Origin: Gammaproteobacteria bacterium
Lineage (GTDB): Bacteria > Pseudomonadota > Gammaproteobacteria > Enterobacterales > Alteromonadaceae
Length of the DNA: 64,000 bases
Direction of reading: 5' to 3'
NCBI GenBank assembly: GCA_017302255.1
Contig: JAFLDV010000019.1
Span: forward strand, 1 to 64,000
The first letter of the stretch is position 1. Every line of letters starts with the position of its first letter. Position numbers and translations under genes: made by a program. Shown piece after piece: positions 448 to 17,727 of the stretch. Below the pieces are notes generated by a model. The model saw only the letters and a list, made by a program, of their open reading frames with translations. It ran no database searches and was not told the DNA's origin.

Positions 448-3075
448 TTAGCGTAAATTTGGCGCCAACCACATACTTGCTTCTTCCGGACTAAACCCTT
501 TGCGAGTTGCGTAATCAATTAACTGGTCTTGACCTATTTTACTTACCGCAAAGTACTTCGCATCTGGATGTCCAAAATACCAGCCAGACACCGCAGCGCC
601 TGGCCACATGGCAAAACTTTCCGTTAACTCAAGACCTATTTGCTTTGTCACATCCAATAACTCAAACAAAGTACCTTTTTCGGTATGCTCTGGACAAGCC
701 GGATATCCGGGGGCAGGACGAATACCTTGGTAAGCTTCGCGGATCAGCTGTTCATTATCCAGCTTCTCATCAGATGCGTAACCCCAGAACTCTTTTCTTA
801 CTTGTTGATGCAGGTATTCCGCTAGTGCCTCTGCTAACCGATCAGCCAAGGCCTTAACCATAATACTGTTATAGTCATCATGGGCCGCGGCGAATTCCGC
901 AGCCAATTCATCAGCACCATAGCCAGTGCATACTGCGAAGGCTCCAATATAGTCTGGAACACCGGAGTCAACGGGAGCGACAAAATCGGCAAGACAGCTA
1001 TTTGGTGCATTGTTTCTAAGTTGTAATTGCTGACGTAAATTATAGAGCTCCGCTACTACTGTATTACGATCATCATCAGCATAAACTTCAATGTCATCGC
1101 CCTTGCTGTTGGCTGGAAATAGTCCAAAAATCGCTTTTCCGGTAACTTTTCGCTGTTTAATCATCAGATCCAACATGTCATTGGCATCTTGGTAAACCTT
1201 ACGCGCCTCAAGTCCAACCTCAGGGTGATTGAGTATCGCCGGGAATTTCCCTGATAATTGCCAAGTCAAGAAGAATGGCGTCCAATCGATGAAGTCCCGC
1301 AGCACAGTTAGATTTACGTCTTGCCAAACATGCACTCCCAATTTCTTTGGTTTCGGGGCAACTTTGGTTAAATCTAACTTGAAGCGATTCGATCTCGCTT
1401 GCTCCAACGTCAGCATCGACTCACCCGGACGGCTACGTTGATGCTGTTCAATTGCACGACGATATTCATCGTTCACACGAGCTAGGAATTCAGGCTTTTG
1501 TGTTGGACTAATCAGTGACTGCACAACCGACACACTTCTTGAAGCATTAGGCACATAAACCACACCATGCTCGTAGTTTGGTGCGATTTTTATTGCTGTG
1601 TGGGCTTTTGATGTCGTCGCGCCACCTATTAATAGTGGAATGGTAAAACCGAGACGCGTCATTTCTTTTGCGACATGCACCATTTCATCCAACGATGGCG
1701 TAATAAGGCCAGAGAGTCCTATGATATCGACATTCAACTCTTTGGCTTTTTGTAGCAATGTTGCGCAAGGCACCATTACGCCAAGATCGATGACTTCATA
1801 GTTATTGCATTGCAGCACCACACCGACGATATTCTTCCCTATGTCATGCACATCGCCCTTTACTGTTGCCATCAGCACTTTACCTTGAGTGCTTGCGCCT
1901 GAACCGGCTTTCTCTGCTTCTATATATGGCTGCAGATACGCAACAGCTTTTTTCATTACCCGTGCAGACTTTACTACCTGAGGTAAAAACATCTTACCTT
2001 CACCAAACAGATCACCAACCACATTCATCCCGTCCATTAAAGGACCTTCAATGACATGCAATGGTCTCTCGACTTGGAGCCGAGCTTCTTCAGTATCAAT
2101 ATCGATAAAATCAGTAATACCTTTGACTAAGGCATGTTCAAGCCGTTTGTTGACCGGCCAACTTCGCCAAGCTTCGTCTTCTTTTACGACAACGGCACCG
2201 TCACCTTTAAACTGTGCAGCTATCTCGAGTAAGCGTTCAGTGGCATCATCACGGCGGTTAAGAATAACGTCCTCAACACGCTCCCGAAGTAATTCCGGGA
2301 TGTCATCATAAACTGCTAGTTGCCCAGCGTTGACGATGCCCATGTCCATACCGGCTTTAATTGCGTGGTATAGAAATACTGAGTGGATTGCCTCTCGTAC
2401 CGCATCGTTACCGCGGAATGAAAATGACACATTAGATACGCCACCGGATATTTTGGCGTGAGGACATCTTTGCTTAATTTCTCGGGTAGCTTCAATGAAA
2501 TCCACAGCGTAGTTGTTGTGCTCTTCTATACCCGTTGCTACTGCAAAAATATTCGGATCGAAGATAATGTCCTGTGGTGGAAAACCTATTTGTTCAGTTA
2601 ATAATTTATAAGCTCGCTCACATATCTCAACTTTGCGCGCTTTAGTATCTGCTTGCCCCACTTCATCAAATGCCATCACGACAACAGCTGCGCCATAACG
2701 TCGTAGCAATTTAGCTTGATGCAAAAATGGCGCTTCGCCTTCTTTTAAGGAAATAGAATTAACGACAGCCTTGCCTTGGATACATTTTAAAGCCGCCTCA
2801 ATGACTTCCCATTTTGACGAGTCGACCATAATCGGCACTCTGGCGATATCTGGTTCAGATGCCAAGAGATTCAGATAACGCACCATCGCAGCTTTACTAT
2901 CTAACATGGCTTCGTCCATGTTGATATCGATGATTTGCGCACCATTCTCGACTTGTTGACGTGCTACTTGTAAAGCAGCTTCGAATTTCCCATCCAAAAT
3001 CAGCTTTTTAAATCGAGCAGAACCGGTGACGTTGGTCCGTTCGCCGATATTTATAAATCGTGCTTGCTTTTGCAT
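448..3075 (-). CDS. metH: Cobalamin-dependent methionine synthase, folate/B12/reactivation subunit (split MetH, C-terminal part)
   Basis: This 875-residue protein carries the last three modules of MetH: the pterin-binding domain (starts at [12 protein letters not shown], about residues 7-270), the cobalamin module with the axial-ligand motif [10 protein letters not shown] (His near residue 410), and the AdoMet reactivation domain (from about 560, with [12 protein letters not shown] near 790). It transfers the methyl group of 5-methyltetrahydrofolate through B12 to homocysteine. The homocysteine-binding module is missing and is supplied by the preceding gene. Its ATG overlaps that gene's stop as TGATG; a GTG two codons upstream is less likely. 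E. coli MetH is one chain of about 1227 residues, close to the sum of the two parts here. Confidence 0.93.
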
Positions 3076-4142
3076 CACCACTCCAAACTAAAAGCTTCTA
3101 ATCCGGCAAGATTAAATTGGTTGGACACCGCTTTGGGTTGACGAGGTTTTAAACCTCTTACCGCTTCAGCAATTGCCTTGATATGAGATGGTGTGGTGCC
3201 ACAACAACCGCCAACAATATTTAAAAAACCCTGCTGTGCCCAATCTTTAATTTCTACGGACATTTCGTCAGCCGCTAAATCATACTCACCAAATTCGTTG
3301 GGCAAACCTGCGTTGGGATGCACAGAGCAATAACACTCAGCAATACCTGACATAGTTTCCACATAAGGACGCAGCAAATCCGGTCCAAGCGCGCAGTTCA
3401 ACCCGAATGTCACAGGTTCGACATGAGCCAGCGAATTATAAAATGCTTCGGTGGTTTGCCCAGACAGAGTGCGACCAGAAGCATCAGTGATGGTGCCTGA
3501 GATCATCACCGGCAATTTATAGCCAATTTCATCAAACACTTGCAGAACTGCAAAAGCTGCAGCCTTGGCATTTAACGTATCAAAAATCGTTTCCAGCATA
3601 ATAATATCGGCACCGCCCTCGATTAAAGCGCGAGTAGCTTCCGAATAGGCCAGAACCAAGGTATCGAAATCGACATTTCGATAGCCAGGATCATTGACGT
3701 CCGGAGAAATAGAGGCTGTTCTATTCGTTGGTCCGAGTACCCCTGCGACATAACGTGGCTTGCTTGGATCTTTGGCGGTGAATTCTTCGCACAAAATTTT
3801 AGCTAGTCTCGCAGATTCAAAATTGATGCGCGCAGCAAGATGCGACATGTCGTAATCAGCCATCGCAATGGTGGTAGCGTTGAAACTATTGGTTTCTAGG
3901 ATGTCCGCACCAGCATCTAAATATTGCCGATGGATTTCACTAATAATCTGTGGCTGCGTGAGAACCAGTAAGTCGTTATTACCTTTTAAATCCGACGGCC
4001 AGTTGGCAAACTCTTCGCCACGATAATCGGTTTCTTGCAATCGATATGCTTGGATCATGGTGCCCATCGCACCATCAAGCACTAAAATTCGCTCATTTAA
4101 AATATCTCTGAGCGCATCAGCGGTAAGTTTTTGCGTGCTCAT
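3075..4142 (-). CDS. metH: Homocysteine-binding subunit of split methionine synthase
   Basis: This 355-residue protein is the homocysteine S-methyltransferase module of MetH as a separate chain. The barrel opens with [11 protein letters not shown] near residue 21, and the three zinc-binding cysteines are visible at 250 (GLNC) and 313-314 ([10 protein letters not shown]), which activate homocysteine thiolate. It ends just after the barrel, where the pterin domain would follow in one-piece MetH. It starts inside the metA stop (ATGA) and stops inside the next start (TGATG), so the three genes are probably translated in tandem and the two halves made in equal amounts. I see no frameshift remnant: the split is clean and coupled, so both parts should be functional. 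Confidence 0.92.
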
Positions 4143-7506: not shown

Positions 7507-8007
7507 CTAAGTGAATTCGGCTGTCAACAACAAGATGGTTTGTTGCAGCGCAAAATCGATACTTTGTTGGCGAATTTGCTCCCGGTCTCCAGCAAACACT
7601 AAAGTCGTACTGACCACATGCCCTTCGACCGCAAAGCCAAAACAGACAGTGCCTACAGGTTTCTGAGCAGAACCGCCGGTTGGTCCAGCAATGCCTGAAA
7701 CTGCGATTGCCACGCCCGAGCCTGCCGCGAGTGCAGCGCCTCGAGCCATTTCTACTACAGTTTCCTCACTCACCGCGCCAAACTGCAACAAAGTGGCACT
7801 TTTCACCCCGAGCATTTGTTGTTTTGCTTTGTTGCTATAAGTAATAAAACTGCGGTCGAGATAAGCAGAGCTACCCGATATCGCCGTAATTGCATAGGAA
7901 ATACCGCCACCAGTGCATGATTCTGCGGTGGTTATACTGAGATTTTTCCGTAATAATAGCTGCCCAAGCTCAGTTGCCAATTGTTGGGTAACCGTGGGTA
8001 CTGTCAT
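7507..8007 (-). CDS. pncC: Nicotinamide-nucleotide amidase PncC (CinA C-terminal domain family)
   Basis: This 166-residue stand-alone CinA C-terminal domain deamidates NMN to NaMN in pyridine-nucleotide salvage. The family motifs [11 protein letters not shown] (near residue 25), [11 protein letters not shown] (near 103) and KPVGTVCFG are intact. The N-terminal molybdopterin-binding-like domain of full CinA is absent, as in the enterobacterial form. It stops five bases before the recA SOS box, and read-through into recA is possible. Its start is 33 bases from the divergent mutS start. Confidence 0.9.
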
Positions 8008-8040
8008 GTTTTATCTCTAGCAGGAAAGCAGAATTTCATT

Positions 8041-10725
8041 ATGCCGTCAGAAAAGCCAAGCGCACAAGCGACAAGCGCGCATACACCAATGATGCAACAA
8101 TATCTGGGACTCAAAGCCGAGCATCCAGAAATTTTATTGTTTTACCGAATGGGCGACTTTTACGAGCTTTTCTATGACGATGCCAAAAAAGCTGCGGCGC
8201 TTCTGGATATTTCCCTAACCAAACGCGGACAATCTGCCGGCGCACCTATTCCTATGGCGGGTGTGCCTCATCATGCCATCGAAAACTATCTCGCGCGTTT
8301 AGTCCAGTTGGGTGAATCAGTTGCAATTTGTGAGCAAGTTGGCGATCCGGCGCTAAGCAAAGGTCCTGTCGAACGCAAAGTTGTTCGCATCGTTACGCCG
8401 GGAACTGTTACCGATGAAGCGTTACTCAATGAGCGCCACGATAACTTGGTAGCTGCATTATCTTGCCATAAACAACGCTTTGGTCTTGCCTATTTAGATT
8501 TAAGCGCGGGTCGTTTTTTGCTGACTGAAGTCAATGGCTTAGATGACCTGTATGCGCTACTGCAACGGTTAAATCCAGCAGAGCTACTTTATAGCGAAGA
8601 TATAGATTTGCCCGAAGCCATGCAAAAACGCAAAGGTGTGCGTCGCCGTCCGGCTTGGGAATTTGAACGAACCTCAGCTGAGCGCGTGCTTTGCCAACAA
8701 TTTGGTACCAAAGATCTGCAAAGTTTTGGCATCAGCGAAGCACCAATCGCACTTTTGGCGGCTGGCTGTTTGATGCAATATGTCAAAGATACCCAACGCA
8801 GTGCTTTGCCACACATTAGAGCGGTTGCGCTGGAGCGCTCACAAGATCATATAGTGCTGGATGCAGCAACACGGCGAAATCTCGAACTTACGCAAACGCT
8901 AAACGGCCAATACGAACATAGCCTCGCGGCCGTGCTCGATCGTTGCCAAACGGCAATGGGCAGTCGGTTATTAAAACGCTGGATCCATGCACCACTGCGG
9001 GCCCAGCAAACCGTTGCACTTCGCCATCAAGCAGTTCACGAGTTACAAGAACATCACGAAGAGTTGCAGGGACAACTCAAACAAATTGGCGATATTGAAC
9101 GAATTATCGCTCGGATCGCCCTGCGCTCAGCCCGTCCTCGCGATTTTGCTAGACTGCGGCAAGCCTTGGAGCAACTGCCGCAACTTAGCCAAAGTTTGAC
9201 GCAACTGCAAAGCCCACTGTTGCAACAACAACAGCAACATTGTCAGCCGTTGCCGGATTTATGCGAATTATTACAACGAGCTATCGTTGAAAACCCACCA
9301 ATGCTCATTCGCGATGGCGGTGTCATTGCACCGGGTTATCATGCCCCGCTAGATGAATGGCGGGCTTTAGCTACTGGGGCGACCGACTATTTAGAGATGC
9401 TCGAACAGCGGGAAAAAGCACGAACTGGCATTGCCTCACTGAAAGTCGGCTACAACAAAGTTGCAGGCTACTTCATTGAAACTGGTCGAGCTGCCGCCGA
9501 TGCCGTGCCTGCCGATTATATTCGTCGTCAAACATTAAAGAACAACGAGCGTTACATCATTCCTGAACTCAAGGAATATGAAGACAAAGTGCTTGGCAGT
9601 CAGAGCAAGGCACTGGCTATAGAAAAACAACTGTACGATCAGTTATTTGATGTTATTTCGCTGCAATTGCCGGCCTTACAGCTGCTGGCAGAAAGTTTAT
9701 CTGAGCTCGACGTCCTGACCAACTTTGCCGAACGCGCGCTGGCACTAAACTACCAAGCGCCTACTTTTAGCACTCGTACCGGTATTCAAATTCAAGATGG
9801 TCGGCACCCGGTTGTTGAGCAAATGATTAGCGAGCCATTTATCGCCAATCCAGTCAGGCTCGAGCCAAATCGTCATTTATTGATTGTGACTGGACCCAAT
9901 ATGGGCGGTAAATCGACTTACATGCGACAAACCGCACTCATTGTGTTGATGGCCTATATCGGTAGTTTTGTGCCTGCCGCACAAGCGGTGCTTGGTCCGA
10001 TCGATCGGATCTTCACCCGCGTTGGCGCTTCGGATGATTTAGCGTCTGGTCGTTCGACCTTTATGGTCGAGATGACTGAAACCGCGACTATTTTACACAA
10101 TGCCACTGCGCAAAGTTTGGTATTGATGGATGAGATTGGCCGCGGCACCAGCACTTATGATGGGTTGTCGTTAGCTTGGGCTTGCGCCAGTTATTTGAGT
10201 GAACAACTCAAAGCATTGACGCTCTTTGCCACGCACTATTTTGAGCTGACAGATTTGGCTGCATTATTACCTGGTGTCGCCAATATCCATCTCGACGCGG
10301 TTGAACATGATGAGCACATCGTGTTTATGCATCAAGTGCAAGATGGCGCTGCAAGCAAAAGCTACGGCTTGCAAGTCGCCCAGTTGGCTGGCGTGCCAAA
10401 AACAGTGATCGAGATGGCTAAACAAAAGCTGGCAGAACTGGAGCAACAATCAGCACTGCGCACGGGCGACAACGTGGTTTCGTCAGAACAAGTTTCGCAA
10501 GTCAAAGCAGCGCAAGTCAATGTTGTGCCAGCACAAAATGCTAAGCCGCCGAGTACCCAACAAACCATGCCAAGCCATACGATGCCAAGCCAAGCACTGC
10601 AACAGCAATTGCCGCTTGAAGCCGCAGAGCATCCTGTTGTAACAGCACTGTCGAGCATAGATCCAGACGAGCTAACCGCACGCCAAGCGCTCGATTTGAT
10701 TTATCAGCTGAAACGTCAGTTGTAA
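8041..10725 (+). CDS. mutS: DNA mismatch repair ATPase MutS
   Basis: MutS recognises mismatches and recruits MutL. The mismatch wedge motif is GDFYELF (near residue 38), the connector, lever and clamp regions follow, and the ATPase has Walker [10 protein letters not shown] (near 616) and the [12 protein letters not shown] motif. A Gln/Pro/Ser-rich linker (about 800-850) leads to a C-terminal tetramerisation-like segment ending in [10 protein letters not shown]. With the start at 8041 the protein has 894 residues, slightly longer than E. coli's 853. A longer frame from 7981 would overlap pncC and adds no conserved sequence. The SD (AGGA) is rather distant. Confidence 0.96.
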
Positions 10726-10731
10726 TTGGCG

Positions 10732-10767
10732 AAAGAGCAATGCAGACATACCTTTGCATTGCTCTTT
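10732..10767. terminator. Bidirectional terminator after mutS
   Basis: A 13-base perfect stem (AAAGAGCAATGCA at 10732-10744 with its complement at 10755-10767) sits between convergent mutS and the transglutaminase gene. A-rich and T-rich flanks allow it to end transcription from either side. Confidence 0.85.
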
Positions 10768-10815: not shown

Positions 10816-11703
10816 TTATTGCGGGATCACATCGACCGCGACACTTAGCTCATGCTCACCGCCGCCTTGTAACACGCCTTTTAATGGCACTACATCACTG
10901 TAATCACGGCCATAAGCCAATGTGATATGCGCTGTATCCACGATTAGATTATTGGTTGGATCAAAATCAACCCAACCATAAATCGGGTCGTACACCGAAA
11001 ACCAAGCATGTGACGCGTCAGCGCCCATCAAGCGGGCTTGACCTTCTGGCGGCAATGTTTGCAAATAACCACTGACATAACGGGCTGGCACGCCGATAGA
11101 TCGCAAGCAACTAATCGCCAGTTGCGCAAAATCCTGACAAACACCACGTCGATGCTTGAGCACTTCATCAACTTGCGTCACTACCGAACTAAACTGAGGA
11201 TCATATTGGAAATTTTCGAAAATAAATTGGTTTAGCCTAAGCGCCAACGCCAATGCGGACTGTTCGGAACTTTGCATTTCGGCAATAAAATGCTTGGCCT
11301 CTGGCAAAATTGGGATCATTTTGCTCGGTTGTGTACACCAAAGCGCAAATAACTCTTGTTGATCCTTTGGCGTTTGCAAATACCGAGCAAGTTCAGTAAT
11401 CGGTGTCGCATCAACAAAACTTGCTGGGTAATTCCGTGGCAAAACTTCAACTTCCGCACAAGACAACACCGCCAACTCTGCATGGGGTGCTTGCACATGC
11501 AATAAATGGCGAATATTGCCAAAACCATCAACATACCGACTCACTTGCTGAGCCAATGGCTGCACTTCAATCCAAGCATTTTGTACCTGTTGATGCGCCA
11601 ACGCTCTTGGCTCCAAACATGCCAAGTTATAACTATTCGCCACCGGATGTTGATATCGATAACGGGTCAGGTGACGTAGCTGATATTTCATTGGTGATCC
11701 CAT
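10816..11703 (-). CDS. Transglutaminase-like cysteine peptidase of the ATP-grasp/alpha-E operon
   Basis: The 295-residue protein has the bacterial transglutaminase-like N-terminal domain (YQLRHLTRYRY onward) and a papain-like core. The catalytic triad is visible: Cys in RRGVCQDFAQL (near 194), His in DASHAWFSV (near 231) and Asp in WVDFDPTNN (near 247). There is no signal peptide, so it should act in the cytoplasm. It is the last gene of a four-gene operon, its ATG overlapping the preceding stop (TAATG); an ATG four codons in is also possible. In related operons such proteins are thought to cut or ligate peptide bonds made by the ATP-grasp partners. The substrate is unknown. Confidence 0.85.
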   Translation of the reverse strand: MGSPMKYQLRHLTRYRYQHPVANSYNLACLEPRALAHQQVQNAWIEVQPLAQQVSRYVDGFGNIRHLLHVQAPHAELAVLSCAEVEVLPRNYPASFVDATPITELARYLQTPKDQQELFALWCTQPSKMIPILPEAKHFIAEMQSSEQSALALALRLNQFIFENFQYDPQFSSVVTQVDEVLKHRRGVCQDFAQLAISCLRSIGVPARYVSGYLQTLPPEGQARLMGADASHAWFSVYDPIYGWVDFDPTNNLIVDTAHITLAYGRDYSDVVPLKGVLQGGGEHELSVAVDVIPQ

Positions 11704-14057
11704 TAGAAACTCTGCCAGAGTCGCCGATCAGTGGCGTGATTAAAATAAGACAAAGTAATGCTATCGGATAAACGACGTAATTGCTTTTGTAGCGCTTGTA
11801 ATAACTCCGCCAGCGCTTCGCTGCCTATTTCACCACCAGCACCATCATCAGTAAGCAGACTTTGCGGTTCAGCTAACTGCAACAAGGAGGTGATTTCTAG
11901 AGCTATGCGCTGCTCTGCCGTCAAACCGGTACTTGGATTTAACGAAGGCAACGCATTACATTGCCGCGAGATCCTCGCACACTGATAACCGACAGAGCGC
12001 GGCGTCGTGGTATCTAGTAACAGTAAATCGATTACCGCCAACGGATGTAATTCACTGCGATAACGACGCCGATAGGTCATCACCGTATCTGCCATTTTCA
12101 ATAAGGCTTCCAGAACCCCGGCCCCTGGCCGACGTCGCACAAACACCAATTCGAGTAGGGCACAAGTCTGCAACGCCCGCTCTAAATGCTGACCTAAATC
12201 TAATAAGCGCAGGGTTTGTGTGCGACTCATCGTCTCGTTATTTAGCCCATAAATTGCGCTTTGTAATAACACCACTTCATCAAGTTGACGCAACAACTGC
12301 GCTGGTTGTTGCGAACTCAAATGCGTTGGCCAACTATGAATGGTGTCTTGTAATTTATCGAGCACGAACCAGGTATCTTCGGCGAAATACTCACGCACAG
12401 ATTGCGCATTAAACAGCAGTTGTTCGAGAACTGCGACTATGCCATTCGCGTGATCAGTGGCAAATATTTGCGTTAACAAGCCTATGGCGCTTTGGTCAGC
12501 GGGACTTAACATATTGCCGTTGGCTTTTAAGCAAAACTGTAATAGCGCTTGCGCGTCATCAGTCGCAACCCACTCGTTATTGGTTAAAAGTGGCAGCAAA
12601 GCGCGTAATGATCTGGCCATCAGATTTAACCGCTCATTGTAGCGCCCCATCCAAAACAAATGATCAGCAACGCGGCTAGGCACTAGGCCGCTATGACGCG
12701 ACAACAGCAGCGGATTGTCGCTGCTTTGCAATAAACTGCGGGCTTTGCCGCGATCAGCAAGCACCCATACGTCTTTAAACAGCGGCGCTAACGTGGTCAC
12801 TAAAAAGTCCTCGGCGTTTATCTGCAACATACCAAGCCCGCCTGGCAACAATCTGCTTTTATTGCCAGTCGCAAGCGCGAACACCCGCATCACTGCAGGC
12901 AACTCTTTGTTTGGTATTAATGCTTGTGGCTGCGTTTGTAACTGCGCTCGTTGTTCTGCGACAAAATAATATGGGTTTGCGGAGATTTGTTCGAATAATA
13001 GCCCTTGCTCCGCTGCGCTCAAACTCGCGAATACTCGGGCTTGCGCGCTTTGCAGTTCATGAAAGACAAAATTGTCAGGCTGAGCCAGCACCATTGCTAA
13101 TGAGCCGCTATCGCCCAACCAATAACTTGGCAAAGGGGGCAATAACAATGACTCACCAAGTAGATGTTGGCATAGTGCCGCCAAAAATGGCTTCAACATA
13201 GCTGAGCTAATCAACCCTGCTCCAGGCGGATTTAAACACTGGCAATGATTTGCTTGTCGCAGCACTTGTAAAAAGCCAGCACAGCCGCTGCCAAGGCTAT
13301 CAAGCTCCAAGGCGTCACATTGTGCGTCCGGTAGTTGTCGCAAAATAGCGCTAACCCGTTGCAGCCCAGTGAGGGTTTTTAACCAAAGCGTATTATCCCG
13401 CATCAGTAAATCCGCACCTTGCATCAAGGGGATATCCAAATAGCTGGCTAAAAACGACTGTTCAAAGTAAGCCGCTGTTCGACCGGGTGGCACTAAAATA
13501 CCGGCGATCCCTGCAGTTTGACCGGCTTGTGGTTGTTGCAATTGCTGCAGTAGCGCGCGGAAAAATCCGGCAAGATGCGCTTTATTTGGCAGATCTGGGT
13601 GTCCTGCGGTGACCTGATTAAACGCCAATCGATGCTGCAATAAATACCCTAAACCCTGCACTTGGCTGGCGTGTTCGCGCACAGAAACCCAACGCCCTTC
13701 CGCATCAAAGCCCACATCAAGTGTCAACAAAGGCAACCAATGTGGCGGATTCAAGGTCATCAGCGGTGGCAAAAACTCTGGGTTTTGCAACACCAGTAAC
13801 GGTGGAATTAGCCCAGTTTGCAGCAGTTGCTGCGGCCCATAAAGATCCGCCAACACCATTTGCCATAACTTTTGGCGCTGACTCACCGCCAGTTCTAGTT
13901 GCTGCCAATCCTGTTCGCTCACGCACCAAGGCAAAGCGTCTAACTGGCGATTAGCATCAGTAACACTTGAATAGTTGTGATCGCGCAGCTCGGCTTGCAG
14001 CATGGCATCAATTTGACCTTGCTGCGCCGAACTCAACTGTTGCCACCACTGCTGCAA
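11703..14057 (-). CDS. Fusion of circularly permuted ATP-grasp (type 2) and alpha-E domains
   Basis: The 784-residue protein has an ATP-grasp-like N-terminal half (about 1-460) and an alpha-helical alpha-E half (about 465-784, opening VADHLFWMGRYNERLNLMAR). Both halves also occur as the two preceding separate genes. In the ATP-grasp half, the nucleotide-loop region equivalent to KPANESGGYG of the upstream paralogue reads DNFVFHELQSAQARVF, so the Lys and Gly residues appear lost and the domain may be inactive or structural. Translation probably starts at TTG (14057), five bases after GGAG; no good ATG is available. The function of this family is not established. Confidence 0.8.
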   Translation of the reverse strand: MQQWWQQLSSAQQGQIDAMLQAELRDHNYSSVTDANRQLDALPWCVSEQDWQQLELAVSQRQKLWQMVLADLYGPQQLLQTGLIPPLLVLQNPEFLPPLMTLNPPHWLPLLTLDVGFDAEGRWVSVREHASQVQGLGYLLQHRLAFNQVTAGHPDLPNKAHLAGFFRALLQQLQQPQAGQTAGIAGILVPPGRTAAYFEQSFLASYLDIPLMQGADLLMRDNTLWLKTLTGLQRVSAILRQLPDAQCDALELDSLGSGCAGFLQVLRQANHCQCLNPPGAGLISSAMLKPFLAALCQHLLGESLLLPPLPSYWLGDSGSLAMVLAQPDNFVFHELQSAQARVFASLSAAEQGLLFEQISANPYYFVAEQRAQLQTQPQALIPNKELPAVMRVFALATGNKSRLLPGGLGMLQINAEDFLVTTLAPLFKDVWVLADRGKARSLLQSSDNPLLLSRHSGLVPSRVADHLFWMGRYNERLNLMARSLRALLPLLTNNEWVATDDAQALLQFCLKANGNMLSPADQSAIGLLTQIFATDHANGIVAVLEQLLFNAQSVREYFAEDTWFVLDKLQDTIHSWPTHLSSQQPAQLLRQLDEVVLLQSAIYGLNNETMSRTQTLRLLDLGQHLERALQTCALLELVFVRRRPGAGVLEALLKMADTVMTYRRRYRSELHPLAVIDLLLLDTTTPRSVGYQCARISRQCNALPSLNPSTGLTAEQRIALEITSLLQLAEPQSLLTDDGAGGEIGSEALAELLQALQKQLRRLSDSITLSYFNHATDRRLWQSF

Positions 14058-14074
14058 AAAAGCTCCGTACTGCC

Positions 14075-15037
14075 TTAGGCAGAGATCTGTTGTTCAGTAT
14101 TAAATTGCACCGACGGATTACAAATCACCTGATGTAATGCCGTGATCCCAGTCTGAATATGGTCGATCAGTTGGTGCAACTGTTCGGTCGACAGATCTGG
14201 CAATGCCTTATCTTCGATAAGCGCTTGTAATTGTTTCACCTGTTGCAAAATCGCACCGGCATGCGGCAGACCGCGCGCCGATGCCGCAACTCGGTTTAAA
14301 CAGTACGCGATTGAGCGCGGAAAATCAGCATAGGTCAGCAAATAGTCAATGGCATCGACATCTGCAGCTTGGTGTGCGACATAATATTGGTAGGATTCAA
14401 CCCCGCCTAATGCATTGAGAATTGAAGTCCAGCGAAATTTTGGCCTTTTGATCTGAGTCGGCTGCAACTGCTTCAACACCATCACATCCATAATGCGGGT
14501 TGTCATATCAGCGCGTTCCAAATGCCGACCAATGTTAAATAAATCAAAGGCTTCACTACGCAACATTGTACCGTCTAATACACCAACTACCATCTGACAA
14601 CGCCGACTAATTTCACTCATCAACTGATAACGTTGCTGGCGCGACAAATTCGCACTGCATTGTTGCTGTAAGTGCAATTCCAATGAGTTCAGCTCTTCGA
14701 ACATATCTCGTGGGATAAGCGGCCTACAAGTGCGTGCATTATACTTTAACGCGGTACAGGTATAGCGGATCGACAGGGAACTTTGTGGATCACTAATTAA
14801 GTGATGCATCACCTCTTGCTCAACCTTAGCAACTTCCGGCCCTATTGCGGTCGCCGTTAAATGCGAGGCGACACTTGTTTGTCCAAGCACTTGCAATAAA
14901 ATCGGCCAGCTAAACTGAGTATCCTGATGGCTATCAATCAACAAGTGACTGGTGGCATTAACCAATCGCGCCGTATCATCAAGGCGTTCTAAATAACGAC
15001 CCAACCAAAAAATATGATCTACAGATTTTAATAACAT
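14075..15037 (-). CDS. Alpha-E domain protein
   Basis: This 320-residue all-helical protein belongs to the alpha-E (DUF403, COG2307) family. The signature opening KSVDHIFWLGRYLERLDDTARL is at residues 4-25, and a second conserved segment NIGRHLERADMTTRIMD lies near 165. No catalytic residues are recognised; the family is known only from association with circularly permuted ATP-grasp and transglutaminase genes. The ATG at 15037 follows AGGTG with good spacing and comes one base after the preceding stop; a GTG one codon upstream is also possible. It is similar in its start to the alpha-E half of the downstream fusion. Confidence 0.85.
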   Translation of the reverse strand: MLLKSVDHIFWLGRYLERLDDTARLVNATSHLLIDSHQDTQFSWPILLQVLGQTSVASHLTATAIGPEVAKVEQEVMHHLISDPQSSLSIRYTCTALKYNARTCRPLIPRDMFEELNSLELHLQQQCSANLSRQQRYQLMSEISRRCQMVVGVLDGTMLRSEAFDLFNIGRHLERADMTTRIMDVMVLKQLQPTQIKRPKFRWTSILNALGGVESYQYYVAHQAADVDAIDYLLTYADFPRSIAYCLNRVAASARGLPHAGAILQQVKQLQALIEDKALPDLSTEQLHQLIDHIQTGITALHQVICNPSVQFNTEQQISA

Positions 15038-15040
15038 CAC

Positions 15041-16498
15041 TCACACCTCATCATTGATGATCCAGGTATCTTTACTACCACCACCCTGCGATGAATTCAC
15101 CACCAGCGACCCTTTGCGTAGCGCGACTCGGCTTAACCCACCGGTGCTGCAATACAGTTCTGCGCCTTGCAAAATAAATGGGCGCAGGTCAAGGTGGCGT
15201 GGCTCCAAGAAACCATCACATAAGGTCGGTGCGGTCGACAGTTTTAAGGTCGGCTGTGCGATAAAATTTCGAGGGTTTTCAACAATAGCCTTCGCCATAT
15301 CGGCGCGTTCTTGCTCAGTGGAGCGAGGGCCAATCAAAATGCCATAACCGCCAGATTCATTGGCAGGCTTCACCACTAACTTGTCGAGATTTGCTAACAC
15401 ATAACCACGCGCCGCAGGTTCCGAGCACAGGTAGGTTTCAACATTGTCGATGAGCGGTTTTTCACCCAGATAATATTCAATTATTTGCGGTACGTAGGCG
15501 TAAATCACTTTATCGTCAGCAACGCCAGAACCAGGCGCATTAGCAATCGACACTAAACCATCAGCCCAAGCTTGAAATAACCCCGGCACACCCAGCACTG
15601 AGTCTTTGCGAAACACTAATGGGTCGAGAAAAATGTCATCAACGCGGCGATAAATCACATCAACCCGTTTAGCGCCATGCAAGGTTTTCAGAAATACCCC
15701 TTGCTCGGTGACGAACAGGTCCGAATTTTCGACTAAATCGACGCCCATTTGCTGCGCCAAATAGCTGTGCTCAAAATAAGCAGAGTTAAAAATTCCAGGC
15801 GTCAGCACTACAATACACGGCACATCACCAGGGCGTGGCGATAGCGATGCCAACATCTTCCATAGCTGATACGGGTAATCATCCACTGGCACTATGGTGG
15901 AGTCTGCAAATAACTCAGGGAATACCCTTTTCATCACTGTGCGATTTTCTAGCATGTAGGACACGCCTGATGGGACGCGTAAGTTATCTTCGAGAACTAA
16001 AAATTGGCCATGTTCGTCACGAACCAAGTCAGTGCCACAGATATTGGCCCAAACGCCAAAACGGGGCGACTTGCCCTGACATGGTGCAAGAAAGTTTTTC
16101 GATTCCAACACCAACTCAGCGGGAACTACTCCTGCTTTGAGAATGCGTTGATCGTGATACAAATCATCGATAAACAAATTTAGTGCGGTCAGCCGTTGGG
16201 TGAGCCCTGCACTGGTTTTACGCCATTCACTGTATGGAATGGTGCGAGGCATCACATCTAACGGCCAAGCTCTATCGATGTTTTGGCCTTCGTTGTAGAG
16301 AGTAAAACACACTCCCATGGTGCTAATCGTCTGATCTAATTGAGATTGTCGACGTTTTAGCTCCATTGGTCCGTGTTTTTCAATAAATTTCGCGATGGCC
16401 GCAGCTGGTGCTCGCGCACAGCCGTTTTCTGCGACTAACTCATCGAAACAGTCAGGTGTTCGTTCATAACCACCTGGCAAAAATTGTTGATGGTGCAT
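15041..16498 (-). CDS. Circularly permuted ATP-grasp protein (COG2308, DUF404/DUF407)
   Basis: The 485-residue first gene of the operon is a circularly permuted type 2 ATP-grasp enzyme. The family start (MHHQQFLPGGYERTPDCFDE, close to the usual YDE-containing opening), VLEDNLRVPSGVSYMLENR near 165, and the nucleotide-binding loop VVKPANESGGYGILIGP near 380 are intact. ATP-grasp enzymes of this group are predicted amide-bond-forming ligases acting on peptides or amino acids, but the substrate is unknown. It is the only ATP-grasp copy in the operon that looks fully equipped. A sigma-54 promoter lies 80-100 bases upstream. Confidence 0.85.
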   Translation of the reverse strand: MHHQQFLPGGYERTPDCFDELVAENGCARAPAAAIAKFIEKHGPMELKRRQSQLDQTISTMGVCFTLYNEGQNIDRAWPLDVMPRTIPYSEWRKTSAGLTQRLTALNLFIDDLYHDQRILKAGVVPAELVLESKNFLAPCQGKSPRFGVWANICGTDLVRDEHGQFLVLEDNLRVPSGVSYMLENRTVMKRVFPELFADSTIVPVDDYPYQLWKMLASLSPRPGDVPCIVVLTPGIFNSAYFEHSYLAQQMGVDLVENSDLFVTEQGVFLKTLHGAKRVDVIYRRVDDIFLDPLVFRKDSVLGVPGLFQAWADGLVSIANAPGSGVADDKVIYAYVPQIIEYYLGEKPLIDNVETYLCSEPAARGYVLANLDKLVVKPANESGGYGILIGPRSTEQERADMAKAIVENPRNFIAQPTLKLSTAPTLCDGFLEPRHLDLRPFILQGAELYCSTGGLSRVALRKGSLVVNSSQGGGSKDTWIINDEV

Positions 16499-16580
16499 GC
16501 TATCCCCCTACAAACGCGGTCTGTCGCGACCACTTATTGCTTTTATGCAATCGGCACTGTTGCCGAGCTAGCTTAAGTAG

Positions 16581-16597
16581 AGCAAGGGGTATGCCAA
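16581..16597 (-). promoter_or_regulatory. Sigma-54 (RpoN) promoter of the ATP-grasp/alpha-E operon
   Basis: The minus strand reads TTGGCATACCCCTTGCT. It matches the RpoN consensus YTGGCAcgrnnnTTGCW at every strongly conserved position, with the GG (-24) and GC (-12) pairs ten bases apart. Transcription would start near 16570, giving a leader of about 70 bases. The small inverted repeat CGGCA-CTGT-TGCCG at 16552-16565 falls at the start of that leader. Such promoters need an enhancer-binding activator such as NtrC; no clear NtrC site was seen between here and the rpoS terminator. Confidence 0.78.
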
Positions 16598-16728: not shown

Positions 16729-17727
16729 CTATTCTTGGAATAATGTCTCGATATTCAGCCCTTGATGCGTCACGATTTCACGTAACCGACGCAAGGCTTC
16801 AACCTGAATTTGGCGCACGCGTTCCCGCGTCAAACCAATTTCACGACCAACATCTTCTAATGTTGACGGCTCAAAGCCTAACAATCCGAAACGACGAGCC
16901 AAGACTTCGCGTTGTTTTGGATTGAGCTCTTCTAGCCACATTACCAAATGCTGACGAATATCGGCATCTTGTAACTCTGTTTCCGGCCCAAGCTCTTTTT
17001 CGTCTGCGAGCACATCCAGTAACTGCTTCTCTGAGGAACCAGCGACAGGTGTATCAACTGAAGTAATTTTTTCATTTAACTTCAGCATCTTCCTGACTTC
17101 TTCCACTGGGCGATTTAACGCTGCAGCGATTTCTTCTGGAGTTGGCTCATGATCGAGTCGTTGCGATAACTCGCGAGCCGCTCTTAAATAAATATTAAGT
17201 TCTTTCACCACATGGATGGGCAACCGAATTGTCCGCGTTTGATTCATGATCGCGCGTTCAATGGTTTGACGGATCCACCAAGTAGCATAAGTCGAAAAAC
17301 GGAAACCGCGTTCAGGATCGAATTTTTCTACGGCACGAATTAGGCCTAGGTTACCCTCTTCAATCAGATCAAGCAGTGCTAGACCACGATTAATATAACG
17401 TCGGGCAATTTTAACCACTAACCGTAGATTACTTTCAATCATACGTTTACGAGCGGCTTGGTCGCCTTTAAGGGCTAGTCTTGAAAAATAAACTTCTTCT
17501 TCAGCGGAAAGTAGAGGCGAGAAACCGATTTCGCCCAGATAAATCTGAGTGGCATCCATGGCTCTTTGGCTATCATCGCGGGTAAAAACGTCGTCGGGTG
17601 TATTATCTTCTTCAGCGGCTAATGCATTTAAATCAGGCTCTGCCGTATCGTCATCCAACAGCACCACATCATCAGTCATCTCCGACTCTTTAAAGTCGAC
17701 TACATCATCTTCATCTTTATGTCCCAT
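16729..17727 (-). CDS. rpoS: Stationary-phase sigma factor RpoS (sigma-38)
   Basis: RpoS directs transcription of general stress and stationary-phase genes. The 332-residue chain has an acidic N-terminus, region 1.2 ([21 protein letters not shown], about 57-77), region 2 with the -10 recognition helix ([16 protein letters not shown]), region 3 and region 4 with the helix-turn-helix ([20 protein letters not shown]). The match to RpoS rather than RpoD is in the small size and [15 protein letters not shown] lies seven bases before the ATG. It is the last gene of the surE-pcm-nlpD cluster; in relatives its main promoter lies inside nlpD. Confidence 0.96.

Follow-up and report, generated by a model that had tools for sequence, protein, structure and literature searches.

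A four-gene ATP-grasp/Alpha-E/transglutaminase-like operon with one probable ligase, one probable pseudo-ligase and a sigma-54-type promoter

We analysed a 64,000-nucleotide stretch of DNA (the window: positions 1 to 64,000 of contig JAFLDV010000019.1, assembly GCA_017302255.1) from a gammaproteobacterium of the Alteromonadaceae, and describe here a four-gene operon that it carries between rpoS and mutS. The four genes are all on the minus strand, run in the same direction and are separated by almost no gaps. They encode a stand-alone circularly permuted (CP) ATP-grasp ligase (hereafter CP), an Alpha-E protein (AE), a fusion of both kinds of domain (FUS) and a transglutaminase-like protein (TG). 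The locus thus unites in one operon the three gene families, CP ATP-grasp, Alpha-E and transglutaminase-like, whose combination marks systems of this kind. The features of the locus are:

15041-16498, minus strand: CP, circularly permuted ATP-grasp ligase, 485 amino acids (PF14403, 528 bits; PF04174, 453 bits; CP_ATPgrasp_2/1)
14075-15040, minus strand: AE, Alpha-E protein, 321 amino acids (PF04168, 218 bits; model all-helical; two homologous halves)
11703-14057, minus strand: FUS, CP-ATP-grasp/Alpha-E fusion, 784 amino acids, TTG start (PF14403, 271 bits; PF04168, 207 bits)
12831-13931, minus strand: predicted degenerate (pseudo) ATP-grasp domain of FUS, residues 43-409 (from Pfam, residue counts and fold match)
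11742-12680, minus strand: Alpha-E domain of FUS, residues 460-772 (from Pfam and residue counts)
10816-11703, minus strand: TG, transglutaminase-like Cys-His-Asp protein, 295 amino acids (PF08379, Bact_transglu_N; PF01841, Transglut_core)
16581-16597, minus strand: sigma-54-type -24/-12 promoter element, TTGGCATACCCCTTGCT, its first base 99 bases 5' of the CP start codon
16654-16677, minus strand: intrinsic terminator-like hairpin 3' of rpoS, which sets rpoS apart from the operon
10732-10767, plus strand: terminator-like 15-pair hairpin where TG and mutS converge
16729-17727, minus strand: rpoS
7981-10725, plus strand: mutS

Pfam scores this large exclude a chance reading of the gene set, and they agree with the domain assignments made in a preliminary description of this DNA. 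That description had also proposed a single operon with near-zero gaps, and both points hold: the CP stop TGA abuts the AE start GTGATG, 17 bases separate AE from FUS, and the FUS stop and TG start overlap in TAATG. Such close spacing, which the description took to imply balanced production of the proteins, may have that effect. In NCBIfam, none of the four proteins was matched. The Cys, His and Asp core residues of TG can be read in its translation, in the motifs VCQDF, HAW and FDP. The flanking rpoS and mutS were identified by translation and position, without a family scan, and the hairpins are to be read against a search for terminator-like patterns that found 11 in the region where 7.6 were expected. 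In the organism's own genome (G000, 4.03 Mb, 77 contigs) the only Alpha-E domains are the operon's two. The close matches of the window FUS, within the best 80 of at least 590 relatives, come from Rheinheimera and Alkalimonas, and two of the same-genus loci have identical counterparts among named contigs, one from Rheinheimera texasensis and one from a metagenome-assembled gammaproteobacterial genome; by sequence the genus is probably Rheinheimera.

Within this genus, the four genes are present or absent together. A genome-wide search found Alpha-E in 16 of 21 same-genus genomes, of which 13 carry the complete CP-AE-FUS-TG order and the remaining three have a contig end inside the operon. In the five genomes without Alpha-E, where Alpha-E was sought genome-wide and the other families at the locus only, no gene of the set was found between rpoS and mutS: these lie 64-82 bases apart in four genomes, and in the fifth are separated by one gene, whose product is 87% identical to the PhoD-like protein of another relative. 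Partial sets were not seen in the genus genomes except at contig ends. By this distribution CP-AE-FUS-TG behaves as a unit, as the preliminary description had supposed. The rpoS-mutS interval is itself a variable cargo spot in relatives, holding a PhoD-like protein and a TonB-dependent receptor in L032, a short-chain dehydrogenase/reductase (SDR) and an AraC-type regulator in L035, and a PhoD-like protein alone in L158. In Marinobacter mangrovi (L068, 7335-13221), the four-gene set lies between mutS (plus two other open reading frames, ORFs) and cinA-recA, the same neighbourhood as in the window at a different junction, with identities to the window proteins of 75% (CP), 48% (AE) and 51% (TG); either transfer or shared descent may explain it. 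Elsewhere in the family (G023; L047, 7764-11667, minus strand) a CP-AE pair adjoins a Band_7/SPFH gene and a gene for a 156-amino-acid protein without Pfam match, and neither TG nor FUS was found within 19 kb around it.

CP is the only member of the operon with a full set of invariant ATP-grasp residues. Residues D157, E170, N172, K330, K377 and Gly 383/384/386 (numbered as in the window CP) are present in the window CP and invariant in all 45 stand-alone CP rows of our alignment; these rows amount to 44 distinct sequences, and the 94 FUS rows used below to 92 (L034 and L052 are the same contig, as are L045 and L053). CP matches PDB entry 3n6x (E 2.6e-150), which its depositors call a putative glutathionylspermidine synthase. 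In trypanothione synthetase, Asp330, Glu344 and Asn346 hold two Mg ions while Lys513 and Lys548 touch the phosphates (PMC3581523; here and throughout, papers are cited for the available parts of their text), and by analogy E170-x-N172 together with D157 are the likely metal ligands of CP. A serine, S177, follows N172 by five residues, as Ser351 follows Asn346 in trypanothione synthetase. An ATP-grasp relative of CP, encoded in the Yersinia operon of the proteasome relative Anbu, releases phosphate from ATP (PMC6376114).

In contrast, the same residues are largely missing from the ATP-grasp half of FUS. The E170 and N172 pair, K330 and the Gly 383/384/386 loop are each found in 45/45 CP rows vs 0/94 FUS rows. 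K377, also present in 45/45 CP rows, is kept in 58 of the 77 FUS rows outside the genus set and in none of the 17 inside it (this set has 15 distinct sequences and includes one Alkalimonas metagenome-assembled genome, MAG, L054). D157 is kept in 68/77 rows outside and 17/17 inside; a D171-R172 motif is found in 70/77 outside, with R172 in 0/17 inside, and Q174 in 72/77 outside. Over the whole domain, 34 (genus) and 35 (others) of the 103 CP-invariant positions are kept in at least 90% of FUS rows, and a looser cut (152 positions conserved in at least 93% of CP rows) gives 43 and 45. The fold is nevertheless kept: an AlphaFold2 model of FUS (predicted local distance difference test, pLDDT, 88.0; predicted template modelling score, pTM, 0.85) finds 3n6x as its best PDB match (E 6.0e-24, target template modelling score 0.74), followed by human glutathione synthetase, E. 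coli glutathionylspermidine synthetase and trypanothione synthetase. A tree cleanly separates CP from FUS rows with support 1.0 and, again with support 1.0, joins the FUS rows of the genus to M. mangrovi; we use only this split and this grouping, the midpoint root falling beside the long genus branch. Within the genus, the median ratio of nonsynonymous to synonymous substitution rates (dN/dS; pairs with dS 0.05-1.5 only, 44-50 per gene) is 0.068 for the FUS ATP-grasp half, 0.026 for the FUS Alpha-E half, 0.021 for CP, 0.031 for AE and 0.038 for TG; because the first value is the highest of the parts and yet low, the domain is under looser but real constraint. Since the E/N pair, K330 and the Gly loop are each retained in 0/94 rows, we consider the fused ATP-grasp domain to be probably a pseudo-enzyme and FUS not a second working ligase; the second ligase implied in the preliminary description lacks the likely metal pair, one lysine and the glycine loop in 94/94 rows.

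The Alpha-E half of FUS, judged by its conserved positions, retains its signature far better than the ATP-grasp half retains its residues. Of the 12 Alpha-E-invariant positions, 10 are kept in at least 90% of FUS rows, both in the genus set and in the others, and W12, R15, E18, R19 and R25 are retained in 94/94. G171 is likewise found in 94/94, E175 in 90 (with D in the remaining four) and R176 in 88. The Alpha-E protein itself is modelled as all-helical (pLDDT 87.8). It consists of two homologous halves (hhalign: probability 99.0, E 4e-18), each with a motif of the R-x-x-E-R type. We could not assign it to a known fold: the best match of the model among PDB folds has E 0.79, a single-sequence search of solved structures found none up to E 1, and a profile search found two weak matches only (E 0.21 and 0.98). 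The available part of the HEPN paper's DUF403 passage says nothing on the Alpha-E-type family.

The operon is preceded by a conserved promoter element of the sigma-54 type. Across the 64 kb window, where 0.76 matches to TGGCAY-N5-TTGC are expected, the only one lies in TTGGCATACCCCTTGCT, which is oriented toward CP; its first base, 16597, is also where the preliminary description had ended the locus. Wherever a genus locus holds CP in full (14 loci, our own included), the best GG-N10-GC element before CP scores at least 10 of 12, while this score is reached by 3/146 other genes of 12 of those loci (start regions shorter than 430 bases left out). Two further contigs of the genus set, L055 and L057, score 11 and 10. 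In an alignment of 11 upstream regions the element is nearly the only conserved stretch; the element listed for L043, at -227 with score 10, is accompanied by the conserved one at the usual place. The genome also carries rpoN, so that a -24/-12 element and the sigma factor gene, the two marks of a sigma-54 (RpoN) regulon, occur together.

Reports on related genes point to nitrogen. In Burkholderia cenocepacia, a DUF404/407-DUF403-TG-large TG cluster is among the common targets of sigma-54 and NtrC (PMC5491218), and in Pseudomonas putida PP2685-2687, one of them transglutaminase-like, appear among genes changed under nutrient limitation, nitrogen included; the first column of the table, whose heading falls outside the available part, gives them values between 6.6 and 11.1 (PMC3325844). 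An RpoN-like site is listed 5' of a Bradyrhizobium CP_ATPgrasp_1 gene (PMC13207237), a correlation with urea metabolism domains is reported from metagenomes (PMC3597751), and Anbu is reported to be highly expressed in nitrogen starvation (PMC6376114, PMC5666114), with expression of Anbu-operon genes unchanged under several other conditions (PMC5666114). By analogy with these systems, the operon is probably induced by nitrogen limitation in this organism as well.

To place the set among its relatives, we used 80 named FUS loci, those most similar to the window FUS among at least 590 relatives; this is a non-random sample, and its flanks often end at contig borders. A common order in these loci is CP, AE, TG-DUF2126, FUS, TG. 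The TG-DUF2126 amidoligase gene lies in the flanks of 51/80 loci, and for 18 of the other 29 a PF09899 match is found elsewhere in the genome (two of the 18 are fragments), which leaves 11/80 without DUF2126 in locus or genome. Six of these (L052, L053, L054, L055, L057, L068) belong to Rheinheimera, Alkalimonas, a MAG of that group and M. mangrovi, and five (L062, L076, L087, L088, L101) are MAGs of other groups. DUF2126 was found in none of the 22 genus genomes, our own included, whether in locus or genome. Anbu, sought in the loci only and with one query sequence (the PF00227 protein of G037), was found in 5/80, all Methylobacter or Methylococcales, with four matches at E <1e-46 and one (L127) at 7e-18. 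The genus genomes have exactly one PF00227 protein each; in our own genome it adjoins hslU and is therefore HslV, so that the earlier statement that no Anbu gene is present is borne out. In G037 (L049), a relative at the level of the order, CP, AE, TG and the PF00227 protein stand in a row, and FUS was not found within 19 kb of this Anbu-type row.

Because DUF2126 accompanies 51/80 loci and 18/29 further genomes and Anbu only 5/80 loci, the window set is, on gene content, best described as a variant of the DUF2126 system from which DUF2126 itself is missing, and not as an Anbu operon that lacks Anbu. The preliminary description had taken it for a minimal form lacking Anbu; this we reject, Anbu being rare in FUS loci and the G037 Anbu row lacking FUS. 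With the DUF2126 five-gene system the window set shares CP, AE, FUS and TG in the same order, including the distinguishing succession of the fusion and then TG, and, in part of the relatives, a sigma-54-like element 5' of CP; it differs in having no TG-DUF2126. Anbu operons, described as ATP-grasp/alphaE/transglutaminase/Anbu (PMC6376114, PMC5666114), share the CP, AE and TG families, whereas the window set has FUS and no Anbu. The B. cenocepacia H111 cluster I35_5080-83, for which dependence on sigma-54 and NtrC is reported, shares DUF404/407, DUF403 and transglutaminase-like genes, but its last gene is given as a 'large protein containing transglutaminase-like domain', and a fusion is not named in the available text (PMC5491218). 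We also considered whether loss of DUF2126 caused the decay of FUS. Loss and decay occur together in the Rheinheimera/Alkalimonas/Marinobacter mangrovi clade. A causal link is not established, however: of the other five DUF2126-less loci, four keep R172 and K377.

In the named loci, 5 of 81 TG-type ORFs lack the Cys...His...Asp pattern. In four of the five, which are extra TG ORFs in L108, L115, L123 and L126, Ala stands in place of the His of HAW, and some TG copies may therefore be pseudo-enzymes too.

The gene set, its behaviour as a unit, the residues lost and retained, the conserved promoter and the lack of detectable DUF2126 or Anbu are all read from the DNA itself. For these we propose, at about even odds, an amide-ligase module induced by nitrogen limitation and driven by sigma-54, in which a single ATP-grasp enzyme is active and a pseudo-ligase/Alpha-E protein is its partner. 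CP would be the only working ligase, activating a carboxylate with Mg-ATP as the acyl phosphate and joining it to an amine, a chemistry modelled on glutathione and glutathionylspermidine synthetases; its product would most likely be a small peptide or isopeptide metabolite. AE would be the likely partner subunit of CP, and FUS a paralogous ATP-grasp and Alpha-E pair joined in one chain, its ATP-grasp half serving as a non-catalytic scaffold or ligand-holding domain and its Alpha-E half staying functional. Because the fusion exists, we infer that the separate CP and AE touch, an argument of the Rosetta-stone type. TG, as a Cys enzyme, could hydrolyse or transfer the amide formed, so that nitrogen would pass through a cycle of synthesis and release. 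Among working systems, the closest analogy for an ATP-grasp ligase paired with an amidase is E. coli Gss, a single protein annotated as glutathionylspermidine amidase and synthetase. The Gss amidase is of the Cys type. We found no paper that assigns a product to this gene set, in a literature search that reached few subscription journals; the earlier statement that no product is established for such operons stands, none being named in the accessible literature.

Several observations weigh against this model. The metal-ligand roles are drawn from motif analogy to trypanothione synthetase (PMC3581523), and CP resembles the glutathione, glutathionylspermidine and trypanothione synthetases in its CP-type ATP-grasp fold and in the D...E-x-N pattern with Ser five residues on, but differs from them in that hhalign detected no relation between the CP profile and the single E. 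coli Gss sequence, in being encoded with Alpha-E, and in having a FUS relative without the E-x-N pair. Neither Gln nor Glu increased phosphate release by the Yersinia ATP-grasp protein, the assay did not distinguish ligation from plain hydrolysis, and the co-expressed Yersinia operon proteins showed no specific interaction with the Anbu bait (all in the available part of PMC6376114). The promoter score of the Alkalimonas locus (L054) is only 9. Outside the genus set, 13/31 CP genes score at least 10, vs 16/533 other genes and 2/47 TG-DUF2126 genes (omitting L052, L053, L054, L055 and L057 and all start regions of less than 430 bases), and some of the high-scoring elements lie at or inside the called ORF start; at 13/31, sigma-54 control would be common, not universal. 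The FUS Alpha-E domain has diverged too, since the Alpha-E-invariant W45 and N118 and the near-invariant R182, D185 and W204 are mostly replaced in FUS, and when the cut is lowered to conservation in at least 93% of Alpha-E rows, which gives 29 positions, genus FUS keeps only 18 of them and the others 14. Finally, because D157, K377 and the D-R motif are widely kept in FUS outside the genus, its pocket there may still bind something.

This last point bears on the idea that FUS is a second, unconventional enzyme, in which D-R-x-Q replaces the E-x-N pair for another reaction and which has secondarily decayed in the window's clade. The frequencies of D171 with R172, of K377 and of Q174 outside the genus set favour it, as does purifying selection on the FUS ATP-grasp domain in the genus; however, no FUS row has K330 or the Gly loop, and since R172 and K377 are both 0/17, the D-R-type site is gone at least in the genus set. 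We think it quite unlikely. A protein-tagging role has been proposed for the family (Iyer et al. 2009, cited in PMC6376114 and PMC5666114): proteins would receive a peptide or an amino acid through CP and AE, and the TG-like enzyme would attach or remove it. Two amide-handling enzymes in one operon would suit such a role, and so would the company of Anbu in other branches (the literature operons, G037 and the five FUS loci), but no proteasome-type partner was found in our genome besides HslV, the CP fold is that of small-molecule ligases (3n6x), glutathione and glutathionylspermidine synthetases are among the structures matched by the FUS model, and no report of a tag or tagged protein was found in the accessible literature; we regard tagging as unlikely here.

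The location of the operon raises a further alternative: the rpoS-mutS interval may hold it as a cassette of defence genes or mobile cargo, since presence and absence are block-wise at a place where relatives hold a PhoD-like gene, a TonB-dependent receptor or the SDR and AraC pair. PADLOC matched none of the four proteins, on which ground we reject a defence cassette, and the conserved sigma-54 promoter and the low dN/dS in all four genes also argue against such a cassette; this explanation is very improbable.

Two other genes deserve mention. The B12-dependent methionine synthase is split in the window into two overlapping minus-strand genes (448-3081 and 3075-4142), for a pterin/B12/activation part of 877 amino acids and a homocysteine methyltransferase part of 355; a genus relative (G008, L158) has ORFs of the same two sizes, and in a same-family genome (G022, L163) the enzyme is one 1243-amino-acid ORF with all five domains. 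In the relative G014 (L042, 16872-17890, plus strand), recA appears as three consecutive short ORFs, perhaps through a sequencing or assembly error.

For the family, these results mean that ligase activity should not be assigned to the fused proteins from Pfam names. FUS-bearing loci come from many bacterial phyla, and it is conceivable, if rather doubtful, that Alpha-E is itself an active or substrate-holding module and that the pseudo-ATP-grasp domain has been kept across these phyla only as its chaperone or scaffold. If so, the system would be a two-station assembly, in which CP:AE makes the bonds while the pseudo-CP-AE protein holds the growing peptide or amine, and the product would be an undescribed nitrogen-stress isopeptide. 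The version described here, without detectable DUF2126 or Anbu and under a conserved sigma-54 promoter, would be a small and probably inducible system, tractable for a product search.

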